DNA of 64,000 nt from the NCBI GenBank assembly GCA_016788165.1, contig JAEUTH010000019.1, forward strand, positions 1 to 64,000, given 5' to 3'. The stretch comes from Bacteroidia bacterium. Its GTDB lineage: Bacteria; Bacteroidota; Bacteroidia; AKYH767-A; OLB10. This document shows, in pieces, positions 24,422 to 32,467 of the stretch. Under the pieces are notes generated by a model that was not told the origin of the DNA, did no database searches, and worked only from the letters and a program-made list of their open reading frames with translations. The first letter of the stretch is position 1; each line of letters starts with the position of its first letter. A program made the translations under genes and the position numbers.

Positions 24422-25990
24422 TTATTTTGCAATGTTTACCGAACGGGTTTCGCGGATTACGGTAACGCGTACTTGTCCGGGATAAGTCATTTCAGTTTGA
24501 ATTTTTTGAGCAATATCAAACGATAATGTTTCGGCTTGTTTATCGCTCACTTTTTCGCTTTGTACAATAACGCGTAATTCGCGACCGGCTTGTATTGCAA
24601 ACGACTTTTCAACACCATGATAAGAGGTAGCTAAAGTTTCTAAATCTTTTAAGCGTTTCATATACTGTTCGGCCATTTCGCGTCTGGCACCGGGTCTGGC
24701 ACCACTAATGGCATCGCATACCTGAACAATTGGCGAAATTAAACTGGTCATTTCAATTTCATCATGGTGGGCACCAATTGCATTAACCACTTCGGGATGC
24801 TCTTTAAACTTTTCGGCCAGTTTCATACCTAAAATTGCATGTGGCAACTCCGGTTCGTCATCAGGTACTTTGCCTATATCGTGAAGCAATCCGGCACGTT
24901 TTGCCAACTTAACATTCATCCCTAACTCAGTTGCCATAATAGCACAAAGGTTAGCAACTTCACGTGAGTGTTGCAATAAATTCTGTCCATAGGATGAGCG
25001 GTATTTCATGCGCCCAACCATACGAATTAACTCAGGTGCTAAACCATGTATGCCTAAATCAATGGTGGTACGTTTACCCACTTCAATTATTTCTTCGTCT
25101 AATTGACGTTTCACTTTGGCCACAACCTCTTCAATTCGCGCGGGGTGTATGCGCCCATCGCTAACAAGTTGGTGCAGTGCCAAGCGTGCTATTTCTCTTC
25201 GCACCGGATCGAAACCTGAAAGTATGATGGCTTCCGGTGTATCGTCAACTATAAATTCAATTCCTGTTGCAGCTTCTAATGCACGTATGTTTCTACCTTC
25301 ACGGCCAATTATACGGCCTTTAACTTCATCGCTATCTATATTAAAAACCGTAACAGCGTTTTCAATAGCATGCTCAGTTGCTACACGTTGTATGGTTTGA
25401 ATAACAATGCGCTTCGCCTCTTTGTTTGCTGTAAGTTTTGCCTCGTCCATTGTGTCTTTTATATGACTCATGGCAGCCGTTTTTGCTTCGGCTTTTAAAG
25501 CTTCAACCAATTGCGCTTTTGCATCGGTTTGACTTAAACCTGCAATCTTTTCTAATTGTTGTACTTGTTTTTCGTGTGCTTTATTGAGTTCTTCTTTGCG
25601 TTTTTCAACTTGTTCGAGTTGTGTTTTAAGACTTTGCTGAATGGCATCGGCCTCAGTTTGTTTACGTGAAAGTTGTTCCGACTTTTGGCTTGCCTCTTTC
25701 TCCTTTTGTTTAATTCGATTTTCGGCTACGGCAATTTGTTTTTCCTTTTCTGTAATTGATTTTTCATGCTCCGATTTAAGTTGATAAAACTTCTCCTTTG
25801 CTTCCATCATTTTTTGGTTTTTAACCACTTCGGCTTTTGCTTCGGCTTCGGTAAGTATGGCTTGAGCTTGTTTTTGGGCTGCTTCTTCCTTTCCCTTATT
25901 GGTTTTATTTACCATAAAATAGGTAATAGCCACACCAACTAAAAGGCCGGCTACTGTTGCTACTATAGTTATTATTAGGTTTTCATCCAT
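24422..25990 (-). CDS. rny: Ribonuclease Y
   Basis: 522 residues. A single N-terminal transmembrane helix (about 6-26), then a long charged coiled coil (about 30-200), a KH domain ([17 protein letters not shown], about 225-240), and an HD domain ([10 protein letters not shown] and LLHDIGK). It is a membrane-anchored endoribonuclease that starts mRNA decay. It follows the 6S-like RNA and zapA on the same strand, with its own terminator at 24373. Confidence 0.97.
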
Positions 25991-26054: not shown

Positions 26055-26253
26055 AAAAAAGCCCGACAAAATTCTGCACCATTATTAAACCCCGAACTAT
26101 TAGGGCTGAAGCTGCCCAAACGTTTACGCTACTTATGTTACTTTTTAAGCGAACTTACAAGTGATTAAAGTCTGCATTAGTGTTTGAAAGCTTATTGCTT
26201 CAATGGTATTTTAATGTTGAGTTTAAAATAGAAATCAGAATTTCATCAGGCCT
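26055..26253 (-). ncRNA. ssrS: 6S RNA (SsrS-like), between zapA and rny
   Basis: The minus-strand transcript would be about 199 nt. Its ends pair over 18 bases: the 5' arm is the complement of 26236-26253 and the 3' arm the complement of 26059-26076, with G-U pairs and no mismatch. A second 8-bp helix joins the complements of 26219-26226 and 26085-26092. An apical hairpin has a TAAG-UUCG-CUUA stem-loop (26146-26157), and small hairpins flank the middle (26103-26117 and 26184-26203). The 3' arm runs into six U residues (26055-26060), an intrinsic terminator. Length, rod shape, side hairpins and the zapA neighbour match 6S RNA, which binds RNA polymerase. Rfam 6S-Flavo was not tested. Confidence 0.72.
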
Positions 26254-26260
26254 ATATTTG

Positions 26261-26294
26261 CAAAACGTTTGCAATAAACCTTTTGTTTATCAAA
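26261..26294 (-). promoter_or_regulatory. Degenerate promoter for the 6S-like RNA
   Basis: Reading the minus strand, TTTG lies at 26294-26291, overlapping the zapA stop codon, and TTTTG at 26265-26261, about 8 bases before the predicted RNA 5' end at 26253. The spacing is a few bases longer than the usual Bacteroidota TTTG-TAnnTTTG arrangement and the TA of the -7 box is missing, so support is partial. Confidence 0.35.
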
Positions 26295-26589
26295 GAACGT
26301 TGGTAGTTAAATGATTATTCATCATGGCTAACATACTATCTAAACTATTGTGCATCTGCGAATTATTTTGCGCGTATGCTTCTTTTTGTTTTTCAAGTTC
26401 TGTAGCCATTTGAATCAGACACATACTATATAAATCCTGCTTATCGGTAATTTTATAATCAACCTCAAAGCGTTCTATTAACTGATTTATTGATTGTGCT
26501 GCAGCTCTAACAGTTTCAACTTCGGTAATCGAAGTTTTTAAAGGATAGGTCCTATTTCCAATCGAAACTGTAATTGAGGTGGTATCCAT
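26290..26589 (-). CDS. zapA: Cell division protein ZapA
   Basis: 99 residues from ATG 26589, in agreement with family length; an upstream in-frame ATG at 26628 overlaps the preceding gene. The N-terminus SITVSIGNRTYPLK followed by a VRAAAQSINQLIERF helix is the ZapA dimer fold, and the C-terminal half is a coiled coil. ZapA crosslinks FtsZ filaments at midcell. It lies 2 bases downstream of the small coiled-coil gene, so the two are co-transcribed. Confidence 0.9.
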   Translation of the reverse strand: MDTTSITVSIGNRTYPLKTSITEVETVRAAAQSINQLIERFEVDYKITDKQDLYSMCLIQMATELEKQKEAYAQNNSQMHNSLDSMLAMMNNHLTTNVL

Positions 26590-26591
26590 TG

Positions 26592-26900
26592 TTAGTTGTG
26601 TTTTTCGTTGCTCAGTTGTTTCATACAAGTATCAATTTGATTAATAAAATTGTCGATTTGAATTAGTAAATCGGTTTTATCAATATCCGTTCTGTTGCTT
26701 GTTATTGCCTGAACTAATTTTGCTGCTTTTAACTTTTCATCTAATTGATGAATGGTAAGGTTCTGATCTTCTATTTTAGCTATCAACTCTTGATTTAATT
26801 CCAACATTTTGTGGTTTTCAATCAATAGCTGTTGCTGCAAATGTATCATTTTTTCAATGCTGCCGTATAACGCATTTATTTTTTGATTCAATTCGTCCAT
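26592..26900 (-). CDS. Small coiled-coil protein upstream of zapA
   Basis: 102 residues, no signal peptide. Heptad-rich helix over residues about 10-70 (LQQQLLIENHKMLELNQELI), then a short spacer and a second helix ending MKQLSNEKHN. It ends 2 bases before the zapA start. The linkage to zapA and the coiled-coil shape suggest a divisome accessory role analogous to ZapB (inference, not homology). No named family recognised. Confidence 0.65.
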   Translation of the reverse strand: MDELNQKINALYGSIEKMIHLQQQLLIENHKMLELNQELIAKIEDQNLTIHQLDEKLKAAKLVQAITSNRTDIDKTDLLIQIDNFINQIDTCMKQLSNEKHN

Positions 26901-26988: not shown

Positions 26989-29900
26989 TTACTCAGTAAC
27001 AACCATTTTACGAACTAATTTCTGACCATCATTTTCAAGTGTGTAGTAATAAACACCTGGTGCTAAATCGGTTGATTTGAAAGTAACCGAATGTTTACCT
27101 GCATCTAACTTGGTATTAACCAAGGTAGCAACTTGTTTACCCAATACATCTGTAACAGTAATTACAGTTTTGCCTGATTTAAGTATGGCGTAATTAATTG
27201 TAGTTAAACCGTTGGCAGGGTTTGGTGTATTTTGATTTAAATACCATCCGTTACCGGTATTCTCGGCAACACCTGTTAATACACATGGCGATGTTTGTTG
27301 CTTAAAACAAAAATCGTCAATAGCCCATCCCTCGCGTGTATTGGTTTGATCGGATGCAAACCTGAAACGGAACATGATGGTACCGGTTGTTAATGATTTG
27401 TACTCATGTACCGACTCAACCCAGGCACCATAAGTGCCGGTAAATGCCGGAACCAAACCTTGGTTAAAGGCAGCAACGTATAATGCGTTGTACCAGTTTA
27501 TTTGGTCGCCAAAATCTCCAAACGATTTCCAAGTTGCAGCACTATCAATTGAAAATTCAACTAAGCCACCATCGTTAAACAAATCCATATCGAAATTATG
27601 CCAAAAACGCATTTCATAACAACGTCCCTGTACTACATTAAACACGGGCGTGTACAAAGAACTTTCGTCATTATTGGGATAATCGCCTGTTAATTTGGTT
27701 GACCAGCAATTGGCACCACCGTGTGGGCCGGTAATAATTGCCTTACTTGGCGAACCTAATTCCCAACTTTGATTTACATTAACAAAGGTTGAAGTATTTA
27801 ATGCAACCCAGGTAGGGCCGGTTTCAAAATCATTACAGTAGCCGGCAGTTGTTGCAGTAACCGTATCGAAAACGGTTAAAACAGCGCATGCAGTATCATC
27901 ATCCGGAAATTCATCAGGTAATTGATTGGGGAAACTGGTATAAACACAAACATCATGGGCACCTGGTGAAGCATTCCACTGACAACTGAATGTATGTTGC
28001 CAGGTGCTATCAAACAATACACCACCAGAAACAGGTGTTGGATTTATTGCATCGGTACAAATAATGTTACCATCTATACGGAGTGTAACCGAAACACTTT
28101 GTAATGGAATGTAACCACTGTTTTTAAGTGTAGCTGTTAATAACTGGTTGCCCGGTTGTAAAACACCATTAGTTGCTTCAACTTTTACTGATGCTGCTGT
28201 ATTAGGTATAGGACGATACACTTTAATATCATCAATAGATACACCATCAGAAGTAGTAAAACCATCGGTTGTATAAACAAACTTAAAGCGCACATTATTA
28301 AAACCATCCATATCACCATTTACATCTTTATAAAATGCATTCATCCAAAAACCTGAACCGCTCCAGCCTGGTGTATTGCTTGAGAAAATGTTAGCGGTAG
28401 TGTACCAGTTATTTGATTGTGGCGAGCCAACAGCACCTAAAACTGCCCAGTTTGTACCTCCATCGGTCGAATATTGAACGTGTGTACCATCGCCATCAAA
28501 TTGATCAGTTTTGTAATTAATATAAAATGACAACTCACCTTTGACCACATTGGTAAAATCGAAATAAGGTGATATTAATTCACAATTTGCATTAGCAGTT
28601 GTAATGGTATTAAGGTTTACATCCCAACAATTAGGTGGCGAGTAAGCCGAAGCTGTGGCTCCAAAATTAGGCGCTCCATATTCCCATTTACTGCTTGCAT
28701 TTGCCGATGATGTTGTCCAACCGGCATTGGGTCCATCAAAATCATCGGTATAAGTTGGAATAATTGTAGGTACGCCTACATAGTCTCTACAAGTAGTGTC
28801 GTTGGTGGCATCGCCATCTCCTGTTAACGATGTCCATGCACAAACCGTAAATTGACCTGTAATAGCATTAAAATTAGGTAATAAATTAATCGTAGCCGAA
28901 GCATTAGGTGCCAATGAACCTGCATAATTGGTTGTTTGCACACCACCTCCATTTACCGAATAAGAAACCGGGAAATTGCTGATTATATTTTGACCAAAGT
29001 TGCGTATTGTAACTGTTAATGTATAGGGCGCACCAATTTGCAAGCCTTGTTGCGCGGGTGCATCAATAGAAGTAACACCGGCATCGAAAGGTGGTGGTAT
29101 TTTAGCACATAAACCATCTAATGAAAATCCGGAGTTTTGGATAATGCCATCACAAGAAAAAGCGTAGCGTAGTTGTAATAAGCCGGTATTGTTAAACTGG
29201 CTCATATTACACTCGGCTTTTATCCATCCGTTCGAATTTCCTTCCCATCCCTGGTTGCCACCACCTGAAATTACATTACCTGTGTACCAATTAACTGCAC
29301 CTACAGGGTTTAGTATTGTCCAGGGGCCACCGGCTTCTGAGTATTCTATCCGTACACCGTCCCAGCCGTTTTCCGTATCAAAATTTATCCAAAAAGATAG
29401 GTTTACGTTGGTTGCATTACTAAAATCAAGAAAAGGTGAATACAAGTAAGCGTACGTATTACTTGGCATACCCTGATAGGCAGTATTTAAATTGATATCC
29501 CAAGAATTTGGTGCCGAATGTGCTGTATTTGTAGCGCCAAAATTAGGTGTACCCAACTCCCATGTATTAACACCAGATGGGTCAGACCCACCTTGCCAAC
29601 CAATTGCACCACCATCAAAGTTTTCACAATAGTTTAAGGTGTCAACCGGTACACCAAATGAACAGGCATTGGTTGTATCGTTGGTATTGTCCTGATCGCC
29701 AACTAATACCGTATATGCTTTAAAACAATATGAGCCGACAGGAGGTAAAAATTGAGGTGGTATGGTAACAATTGCAGTTGCATTGGGTGTTAATGGTGTA
29801 CCAGTATAAGCCACCGGGCCTTGTGGGCCAGCACCTATATCATAATACAAATCGAATACAGATATTGTATTGATACCAAAGTTACGCACCCTAACTGTCA

Positions 29901-32346
29901 TATCAGTTAACGTATTTGCACCTGAATTTGAGCCCGGGCTAATTATAGCATCAACACCAATATCATCAGGTAGTGGCACACGAATACAGAAGTCGTCTAA
30001 TGAAAAGCCGTCATTCTCGATTATACCATCTGAAGTAAATACAAACTGAAACTGCACATTACCTGCATTGTTAAACTGACTTAGGTTTTTAGATGCTTTT
30101 TTCCATCCGCCTCCATCGTCCGTCCAAGCTGAATCACCATTGGCAGAATTAATGGTACCATCATACCAGTTTACGGCTATACCATCTGAGTTAAGATTGG
30201 TCCATGGGCCTGCATTTAATGAATATTGCAAACGTGTACCATCCCAAAAACCTTCCGTAAAATAATTAATCCAAAAAGAAAGCTCTACATTTTGAACCGG
30301 TGTAAAATCGAAAAATGGTGACAATAAAATGGCATTTGCATTGCCGGTATAGGCCGAATTCAAATTAACATCCCAGCTATTAGGCGCACTATGCGAACTA
30401 CTGGTAACACCAAATGCAGGCGTACCTAACTCCCAAAGCGTTGTGGCGCCCGGTGTTGTAACATCTGTCCAATCATTACCGTTAACATCAAAATCGTTAC
30501 AATAGGTTAGTTGTATAACCGGAATACCTTTAGATGCAACACACATTGTATCGTTTGGTGTATATGCATCGCCAGTTGTAACTACCCATGCACAAAAATC
30601 GTAGTTACCATTAGGTATAACAAATGTAGGCATGGTAATAACAGCCGTATCATTTGGCGCAAGTGGTGCACCGGCATACGCTGTTGGTCCAACCACGGTG
30701 GCACCGCCATCAATGGTATAGTAACAGTCGAAAGCTGCTACGTTAACGGTTCCATAATTACGTACCCGTATAATGGCATTGCTGTTTTGTCCCCCGCCAC
30801 CGGTGGCAAAAGGTTGCTTAATTTGATCAACACCCATATCCGTAGGTGGTGGTTGAATGATGCAAAAATCGTCTAATGAAAAACCATCACCGGTACTAAA
30901 CTGACTCGATTTAAATACGAATCTGAATTGCACACCACCAACACTTGCATCGAATGCACTTAAGTTAAAGCCTGCCTGCACCCAGCCATTAGAGTTACCC
31001 CCCCAACCCGCTTGTGAGTTATTGGCAATGTTGGTTAAGTTGTACCAATTAGTTGCTGATGGATCTAATGCAACATCTAAAAGTGTCCAGGGGCCACCTG
31101 CTTGCGAATATTCTAAATATACGCCATCCTCGTCAAAATTTGCTGTAGTAGCACTATTGTACCAAAACGACATGCGGCAATTGATACTTGCAGCAAAATC
31201 GAAAACGGGTGAGGTTAAATAACTTTCCGAACCTTGAACGTAAGGACCAGTTAATACAATATCCCATGCATTAGGTGCCGAATGTGCTGTTGAAGTTGGG
31301 CCATAGTTAGGTGCGCCTAATTCCCAAACCGAACCCGAAACCGAAGTCGCTGTCCATAAATTATTTACATCAAAGTCATCACAATAAGGGAATGTAATAC
31401 CCGAAGATGCCACAAAACAAATTGGTTGTGGAACACCTCCCACAAATGCAGGGTAGTAAATTTCGTTAGCACATGATGAGGCATCTTGCGCATAGAAATA
31501 ATAGCAAACGGTATCCAAATGATTTACACCAGGAATTTGACCGGTGTAAACACTATCGCCTAATGGATTAACCATAGGTATCACATTAGGACCTACGCCA
31601 TTAACGGTATAAAAAATGTAAACAGCAGCCAATCCTGATTGGTCGGTAACATTTAAATTTAAGTCGAATGGGCCTAAGTTATAAATTGTGTTCGATAAAA
31701 CAGGTGGCAATTGAGTAACCACAGGCGGGAATACTTCACATGGTGCTGATTCAATACATATATCATCAATCAACCAGCCTAAACGACCACCCATGCCTGA
31801 GTTATTTAAGTCCTTTGCAACCCAACGAACTTTAGCATTGGGACTTAATCCCACTAATGCCGAAATATCGAACGTTTCGAATTTCCACCAGGTAGAATCG
31901 GGTAAGGCACCTGCATTACCGGGTTGCCAAGTAGGGTATGATGATTCGACAAACTTATTTCCTTGCTGACCAAAAGGTGCCGATCCCATATACTCTGTGG
32001 CTGTAAGATTTGTCCATGTAGTACCACCATCGTTTGAAACCTGAACAATACCTTGGTCAAAAAACTCGAGCTTACAGATATGCCAAAACTTAAGTAACAC
32101 AAAACTGTGACCCGGTGTTGCAAAATCAATATCAACCGTAGTAAGCACCGCTTCGTTGCCTTGAGCATAAGTACCCAAAGTACTTTGTAAACCTGTATGC
32201 GGATAGGTTGTGTTTGCATTAAAACCCGGTGTACCGGTTGAGGTTACCGAGTCAATAACTTCCATATCCTCAGAAAAATAACAGTTTTGACTAAAAACCG
32301 TTATTGTGGTTAAGAAGAAAGACAGCGTAAATAGTAGTTTTTTCAT
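26989..32346 (-). CDS. Giant T9SS-exported protein with repeated jelly-roll (choice-of-anchor J/MAM-like) and CARDB-like domains
   Basis: 1785 residues from ATG 32346 (a TTG two codons upstream is less likely). The signal peptide ends near residue 20 (TITVFSQN). An N-terminal jelly-roll-like domain (about 25-205) is followed by five units of about 293 residues. Each starts with a Y-C-x-D/N-F motif, carries WELGxPxFG, HSAPNSWDxNL and SP-FDF-x-LSFW strands, and closes with a CARDB-like beta sandwich (VRNFG-type strand) in most copies. The C-terminus is a T9SS type A domain (NTPNPANGLT, GVYYYTL, RKMVVTE). No catalytic motif is seen; a surface adhesin or matrix protein is likely. Confidence 0.8.
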   Translation of the reverse strand: MKKLLFTLSFFLTTITVFSQNCYFSEDMEVIDSVTSTGTPGFNANTTYPHTGLQSTLGTYAQGNEAVLTTVDIDFATPGHSFVLLKFWHICKLEFFDQGIVQVSNDGGTTWTNLTATEYMGSAPFGQQGNKFVESSYPTWQPGNAGALPDSTWWKFETFDISALVGLSPNAKVRWVAKDLNNSGMGGRLGWLIDDICIESAPCEVFPPVVTQLPPVLSNTIYNLGPFDLNLNVTDQSGLAAVYIFYTVNGVGPNVIPMVNPLGDSVYTGQIPGVNHLDTVCYYFYAQDASSCANEIYYPAFVGGVPQPICFVASSGITFPYCDDFDVNNLWTATSVSGSVWELGAPNYGPTSTAHSAPNAWDIVLTGPYVQGSESYLTSPVFDFAASINCRMSFWYNSATTANFDEDGVYLEYSQAGGPWTLLDVALDPSATNWYNLTNIANNSQAGWGGNSNGWVQAGFNLSAFDASVGGVQFRFVFKSSQFSTGDGFSLDDFCIIQPPPTDMGVDQIKQPFATGGGGQNSNAIIRVRNYGTVNVAAFDCYYTIDGGATVVGPTAYAGAPLAPNDTAVITMPTFVIPNGNYDFCAWVVTTGDAYTPNDTMCVASKGIPVIQLTYCNDFDVNGNDWTDVTTPGATTLWELGTPAFGVTSSSHSAPNSWDVNLNSAYTGNANAILLSPFFDFTPVQNVELSFWINYFTEGFWDGTRLQYSLNAGPWTNLNSDGIAVNWYDGTINSANGDSAWTDDGGGWKKASKNLSQFNNAGNVQFQFVFTSDGIIENDGFSLDDFCIRVPLPDDIGVDAIISPGSNSGANTLTDMTVRVRNFGINTISVFDLYYDIGAGPQGPVAYTGTPLTPNATAIVTIPPQFLPPVGSYCFKAYTVLVGDQDNTNDTTNACSFGVPVDTLNYCENFDGGAIGWQGGSDPSGVNTWELGTPNFGATNTAHSAPNSWDINLNTAYQGMPSNTYAYLYSPFLDFSNATNVNLSFWINFDTENGWDGVRIEYSEAGGPWTILNPVGAVNWYTGNVISGGGNQGWEGNSNGWIKAECNMSQFNNTGLLQLRYAFSCDGIIQNSGFSLDGLCAKIPPPFDAGVTSIDAPAQQGLQIGAPYTLTVTIRNFGQNIISNFPVSYSVNGGGVQTTNYAGSLAPNASATINLLPNFNAITGQFTVCAWTSLTGDGDATNDTTCRDYVGVPTIIPTYTDDFDGPNAGWTTSSANASSKWEYGAPNFGATASAYSPPNCWDVNLNTITTANANCELISPYFDFTNVVKGELSFYINYKTDQFDGDGTHVQYSTDGGTNWAVLGAVGSPQSNNWYTTANIFSSNTPGWSGSGFWMNAFYKDVNGDMDGFNNVRFKFVYTTDGFTTSDGVSIDDIKVYRPIPNTAASVKVEATNGVLQPGNQLLTATLKNSGYIPLQSVSVTLRIDGNIICTDAINPTPVSGGVLFDSTWQHTFSCQWNASPGAHDVCVYTSFPNQLPDEFPDDDTACAVLTVFDTVTATTAGYCNDFETGPTWVALNTSTFVNVNQSWELGSPSKAIITGPHGGANCWSTKLTGDYPNNDESSLYTPVFNVVQGRCYEMRFWHNFDMDLFNDGGLVEFSIDSAATWKSFGDFGDQINWYNALYVAAFNQGLVPAFTGTYGAWVESVHEYKSLTTGTIMFRFRFASDQTNTREGWAIDDFCFKQQTSPCVLTGVAENTGNGWYLNQNTPNPANGLTTINYAILKSGKTVITVTDVLGKQVATLVNTKLDAGKHSVTFKSTDLAPGVYYYTLENDGQKLVRKMVVTE
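27300..31390 (-). repeat. Five-copy tandem repeat, period about 880 nt, inside the T9SS protein
   Basis: The Y-C/T-x-x-F starts of successive units lie near 31387, 30503, 29632, 28752 and 27840, so the period is 872-912 nt. Copies retain WELG/WEYG, HSAPNSWD and LSFWIN cores but vary elsewhere. The last copy is the most divergent. Confidence 0.7.
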
Positions 32347-32467
32347 GGGCAATTTGATTTGAATTTCTTTGGTGTTGTATTTCTGTTACTAAGTATGAGG
32401 ATAAAATAAAGGCGTAAAAATATATTTTAAATTGAAATAAGTATAACAGTTGTGTATGTATGAAGTC

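Follow-up and report, generated by a model that had tools for sequence, protein, structure and literature searches.

We are highly confident that the minus strand of the window, by which we mean the whole 64,000-nucleotide stretch analysed here, carries the 6S RNA gene (ssrS) of its genome between zapA and rny, and that this gene is orthologous to 6S-Flavo by sequence motif, structure and position. Sequence comparison further suggests that this 6S RNA is likely to be read through from zapA under antitermination of the rRNA type, directed by a boxA. Weighed together, the 6S identity and the model of zapA read-through with boxA seem very likely to be right. The proposed feature comprises the RNA core at 26056-26252 and the boxA at 26290-26301. 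The source genome (G000) belongs to the Bacteroidota and consists of 3.34 Mb in 46 contigs. On its minus strand zapA (26290-26580; Pfam PF05164, ZapA, E = 1e-14) is followed by a 300-nt gap that holds the RNA and then by rny, encoding RNase Y (24422-25990; PF12072, RNase_Y_N, E = 1e-36, with PF00013 and PF01966). The first-pass annotation had named zapA as the upstream neighbour, as it is for ssrS, and rightly so, given the Pfam match and the E. coli arrangement in which zapA, ssrS and fau all lie on one strand. A 102-aa reading frame (26592-26900, minus strand) directly before zapA occupies the position of zapB in the proteobacterial zapB-zapA-ssrS order and appears coiled-coil by eye; the family search with it matched none, and a ZapB-like identity is unsupported by searches. 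A reading frame of 1787 aa (26989-32352, minus strand) shows repeated domains and an apparent type IX secretion sorting tail (VLGKQVATLVNTKLDAGKHSVTF...).

The RNA, of about 198 nt (26056-26253, minus strand), follows the general architecture of 6S RNA, a rod of ~180-200 nt with a closing stem, a central bubble and an apical stem. Its best core (26056-26252) was assigned to the 6S-Flavo / Bacteroidales-1 group from the match to a covariance model of our own (R1, described below), covariation and the z-score of the fold. The segment 26055-26253 had a minimum free energy of -54.8 kcal/mol (z = -4.6), and 1 of 200 shuffled sequences folded equally well. The closing stem P1, of 17-18 bp, pairs a 5' arm at 26236-26252 (GGCCTGATGAAATTCTG) with a 3' arm at 26060-26076 (CAGAATTTTGTCGGGCT) that is also the stem of the intrinsic terminator, the T-run of which lies at 26055-26060, giving the 3' end GGGC-TTTTTT (26055-26064). 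In the second stem (P2) UUUAAACUC is paired with GGGGUUUAA; the latter, the partner of AAACUC, was placed at 26085-26093 by the fold and the larger of two alignments (A2). The first apical helix (P3) has its 5' arm at 26197-26202, pairs with 26107-26112 and shows a compensated change (UGAAGC/GCUUCA vs UGGAGC/GCUCCA), and an apical hairpin AAG-UUCG-CUU is located at 26147-26156. The folded minus-strand RNA of about 199 nt that had been described earlier was thus recovered with its closing stem, second stem, UUCG hairpin and T-run. Where the central bubble borders the closing stem, the alignment revealed a conserved AAACUCAACA (26215-26224), a putative template for pRNA. The 3' strand of the bubble can form an alternative hairpin, GCCCU/GGGGU (26089-26106, z = -2.9), which is mutually exclusive with P2 and is a candidate release hairpin; it is strong in the window and its near relatives, whereas several families have a weak version or none (71 distinct segments gave a mean z of -1.1).

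The strong fold is not a product of chance, and the RNA is kept in relatives with doubly changed pairs. An RNase Y gene was identified in 59 of the 61 relatives searched, and their zapA-rny gaps were then read. Most of them hold one RNA with the order CCCGCAUUAGUUCCG ... AAACUCAACA ... UUGGAG ... AGCAG ... CUCCACCC ... GGGGUUUA ... CGGAAUUAAUGCGGG-UUUUU. In an alignment of 22 sequences (A1), assessed against a structure of 39 pairs drawn up by hand, 26 of the 39 were changed on both sides. In A1 88.7% of cells were paired, compared with 32-49% when the partners were slid by 1-3 columns; part of this gap is expected since the structure was drawn on one member sequence, which does not apply to the double changes. 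When 79 sequences were aligned to the model (A2, an alignment fitted to the structure and hence biased towards it), double changes were found in 38 of the 39 pairs, and none of 500 shuffles scored as high. All P1 pairs were doubly changed in A2, with 94.9% of cells paired. The search for compensatory changes in relatives, suggested in the first-pass annotation as a check, therefore came out strongly in favour of the RNA. The motif ACUCAACA was almost invariant in A1 and is the same in the 6S-Flavo consensus.

The Rfam search of the window returned nothing at the gathering thresholds, and no 6S model was listed even at a permissive E-value; the permissive matches were to snoRNA and miRNA models and reflect chance only. 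The suggested search with the 6S and 6S-Flavo models thus failed for the window itself and succeeded, below threshold, at the zapA-rny gap of relatives. Just upstream of rny, RF00013 (6S) matched in two relatives (E = 0.002 and 6e-5), RF01685 (6S-Flavo) in five relatives and at locus L031, and RF01693 (Bacteroidales-1) at locus L012, all below threshold. Two more weak RF01685 matches lay away from zapA-rny: the one in genome G052 was an unlinked copy also found by R1 (65.5 bits), and the one in G017 is probably due to chance. At E <= 0.001 RF01685 matched in 11 genomes of the class (two above the cut-off), and 10 of these 11 matches lay between zapA and rny. Alignment to 6S-Flavo showed a common ACUCAACA start, a GG-GUUU end and an identical order of helices; the 6S-Flavo frame ACUCAACA...GGRGUUU with four apical helices is present in the RNA. 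The likeness to 6S-Flavo extends to the zapA-rny position, whereas the Rfam model covers 108 nt only, lacks the closing stem and does not match the window sequence.

The link to recognised 6S RNAs was provided by R1, a covariance model built only from the window and its relatives (22 sequences). R1 scored the window RNA, itself among those 22, at 135.7 bits (E = 4e-26). It also detected both above-threshold 6S-Flavo RNAs, at 63 bits (62.9, E = 7e-11) and 59 bits, and above-threshold Bacteroidales-1 RNAs unlinked to zapA at up to 54 bits (54.1, E = 6e-10), with a weak match or none for some of the latter. RF01693 and R1 picked identical places in genomes G284, G107, G124 and G071 (loci L254/L208, L256, L261 and L262), and matches to RF01685 and RF01693 overlapped in G062, G202 and G326. 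Since the models find each other's members and places, 6S-Flavo, Bacteroidales-1 and the group of the window are best read as one family, which unites two Rfam families and an unrecognised group in one 6S lineage. Because R1 connects the sequence to recognised members, the failure at the gathering thresholds reflects the reach of the Rfam models and not the definition of 6S RNA. The 6S identity proposed in the first-pass annotation thereby gained support from the Rfam matches in the relatives' gap, the cross-detection by R1 and the zapA-rny synteny. Bacteroidales-1 (RF01693, '6S-Bacteroidales suggested') resembles the window group in the R1 scores of its unlinked members and in scores of 73-92 bits where the models overlap, but its above-threshold members differ in lying away from zapA and rny, with their own TAnnTTTG promoter and no boxA. 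In Bacteroides, 6S RNA and pRNAs have been observed by dRNA-seq (PMC7366714); we infer that this RNA is the Bacteroidales-1 RNA, helped by the match of a Bacteroides control genome to RF01693. Proteobacterial 6S RNA (SsrS, RF00013) is similar in lying directly 3' of zapA in E. coli and in a whole-model match (E = 0.0004) in one relative, whereas E. coli ssrS is followed by ygfA/fau instead of rny and its zapA-ssrS interval lacks a good boxA. The order zapA-ssrS has been described for beta- and gamma-proteobacteria (PMC7641849). The zapA-6S order is common to different phyla and may be an ancient arrangement.

The boxA (AACGTTCTTTGA, 26290-26301, minus strand) escaped the first-pass annotation and lies outside the stretch marked there. 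It matches the boxA of the 16S leader, and its presence ahead of the RNA is conserved throughout the class. Its CGTTCTTTGA overlaps the last codons of zapA (N-V-L-stop), 37 nt before the RNA, and occurs at two sites only in the genome, the zapA stop codon and the 16S leader (G000:C19:4093-4102, minus strand, 97 nt before the 16S gene). A reversed control pattern also gave 2 sites genome-wide; the count is thus ordinary, with no enrichment, and it is the placement and not the number that is informative. Almost every gap of the relatives carried CGTTCTTT at or just past the zapA stop. Of 62 linked copies, 51 have GTTCTTT in the 200 nt preceding the RNA, vs 76 of 1312 control stretches (6%), and several of the 11 linked loci lacking the exact motif carry GTTCTTA or GTTCATT. 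Similar results were obtained in a second, named sample, where GTTCTT[TA] was present within 150 nt upstream in 40 of 42 linked copies vs 51 of 1219 controls. The GTTCTTT motif goes with the RNA. Coding of the ZapA C-terminus as the mere reason for the motif was rejected, as elsewhere the motif sits past the zapA stop and also occurs where there is no zapA.

The sequence, placement and conservation of the motif lead us to infer a boxA function at the 6S locus. The GTTCTTTGA shared with the 16S leader of this genome agrees in its core with the gammaproteobacterial consensus GYTCTTTAANA, and in this it is like the boxA of rRNA leaders, suhB and other Nus targets; unlike at the known sites, it precedes a 6S RNA. 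The survey that gives this consensus did not, by its authors' own statement, consider non-coding RNAs (PMC5725501). Our search of the open-access literature for 6S RNA together with boxA found no relevant report, which is not proof of novelty.

A different account would keep the 6S identity and deny the motif a working role: GTTCTTT would be an inherited leftover or belong to a weak promoter, and an unrecognised promoter of its own would serve the RNA. The TTTG inside CTTTGA does resemble a -33 element, and Bacteroidota promoters can be degenerate. However, motif and RNA are separated by anything between 13 and 121 nt, a spacing looser than a promoter would allow, CGTTCTTTACATA, which has no TTTG, stands in many copies, and the linked loci have no -7 box: none of the 62 linked loci, and none of the 42 in the second sample, has TAnnTTTG in the 30 nt preceding the RNA, although two of these 42, both from Rikenellaceae, are perhaps not directly linked. 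CGTTCTTTGA as a -33/-7 promoter was rejected for its variable spacing and the missing -7 box. The identical motif was present in 15 of 15 16S leaders examined in relatives, 91-140 nt before the gene, was kept at 7 of 17 copies not adjoining zapA, and was absent from zapA-rny gaps devoid of the RNA. We consider this account of the linked loci unlikely. The scan was for the TAnnTTTG type, and a promoter of another type could escape it. That type was found just upstream in 4 of 17 unlinked loci of the class (background 146 of 7085) and in 7 of 7 Bacteroidales-1 loci (L247-L253). Among unlinked copies, L247-L254, L222, L225 and L226 have TAnnTTTG just upstream and no boxA. Most unlinked copies had either TAnnTTTG or boxA and no copy had both, six unlinked copies carrying neither in exact form. 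In the simplest view there are two modes of expression, zapA read-through with antitermination or an own promoter.

For the linked genes, including that of the window, the model of zapA read-through with boxA predicts the following. No promoter dedicated to the 6S gene can be recognised, and transcription would arrive through zapA. A working boxA binds NusB/S10 and suppresses Rho termination; the one here would load these factors at the zapA stop as in an rRNA leader and allow the polymerase to cross the untranslated stretch. P1 would terminate the transcript, and processing would generate the 5' end of the 6S RNA. 6S RNAs are small RNAs that bind RNA polymerase holoenzyme of the sigma-70 type and inhibit it, and in E. 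coli and B. subtilis the rod of 6S RNA mimics an open promoter. By analogy, the rod described here, with its closing stem, central bubble and apical stem, would mimic an open promoter and bind RNA polymerase holoenzyme. Synthesis of the pRNA would begin on the 5' strand of the bubble and run on into P2, copying AAACUCAACA, with the predicted product 5'-...UGUUGAGUUU...-3'. Copying would free GGGG, which in this genome may re-pair with the preceding CCC (GCCCU) and eject the RNA. A structured trans-acting RNA of 6S ancestry whose present target is core polymerase, as for the actinobacterial Ms1, or something else might be suspected from the failure at the Rfam cut-offs and from the fact that a 6S function here is predicted from comparison; however, the bubble motif ACUCAACA recurs in 6S-Flavo, as does the paired architecture, and the Bacteroides member makes pRNAs (PMC7366714), if it belongs to the same family as we suppose, and we regard such a change of target as very improbable. 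If 6S RNA and rRNA do share an antitermination signal, the supply of a polymerase inhibitor would be tied to the supply of ribosomes. A broader proposal, to which we give an even chance, is that throughout the Bacteroidia 6S RNA is an antiterminated transcript like rRNA, made by zapA read-through with boxA, so that a global inhibitor of RNA polymerase comes under the same Nus control as rRNA, that genes which moved swapped the boxA for a promoter, and that the zapA-6S order is perhaps ancient.

Within the order, R1 found one copy per genome in 35 of 42; under strict filters, it found the RNA in 69 of 295 genomes of the class, where RF01685 and RF01693 matched above the cut-off in 2 and 8 of the 295, respectively; a 6S gene is thereby supplied for many genomes with none annotated. 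In one genus of the same family (g4; loci L032 and L033, including Bacteroidetes bacterium OLB10) the zapA-rny gap is short and no copy was detected anywhere. Of the 69 class copies, 52 adjoin zapA and/or rny and 17 neither, and because unlinked copies persist in diverse contexts the RNA is a stand-alone one. A cis-acting leader of rny (an attenuator or riboswitch with P1 as terminator and read-through set by a ligand or the level of RNase Y), although suggested by the place of the RNA directly before rny in the same orientation and by P1 being an intrinsic terminator, was rejected as extremely improbable because these 17 copies and the Bacteroidales-1 type keep the RNA and its structure without rny as a neighbour, and also in view of the matches to 6S models and of an alignment in which no conserved anti-terminator was noticed. 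In named genomes retrieved with an RNase Y query, R1 placed the RNA ahead of rny in members of Pedobacter, Mucilaginibacter, Sphingobacterium, Olivibacter, Vicingaceae and other groups; a few of these matches had E near 0.01-0.03, yet all were in position. In one Bacteroidales genome (UBA1402, L146:3039-3437) a tmRNA gene was located directly 3' of rny.
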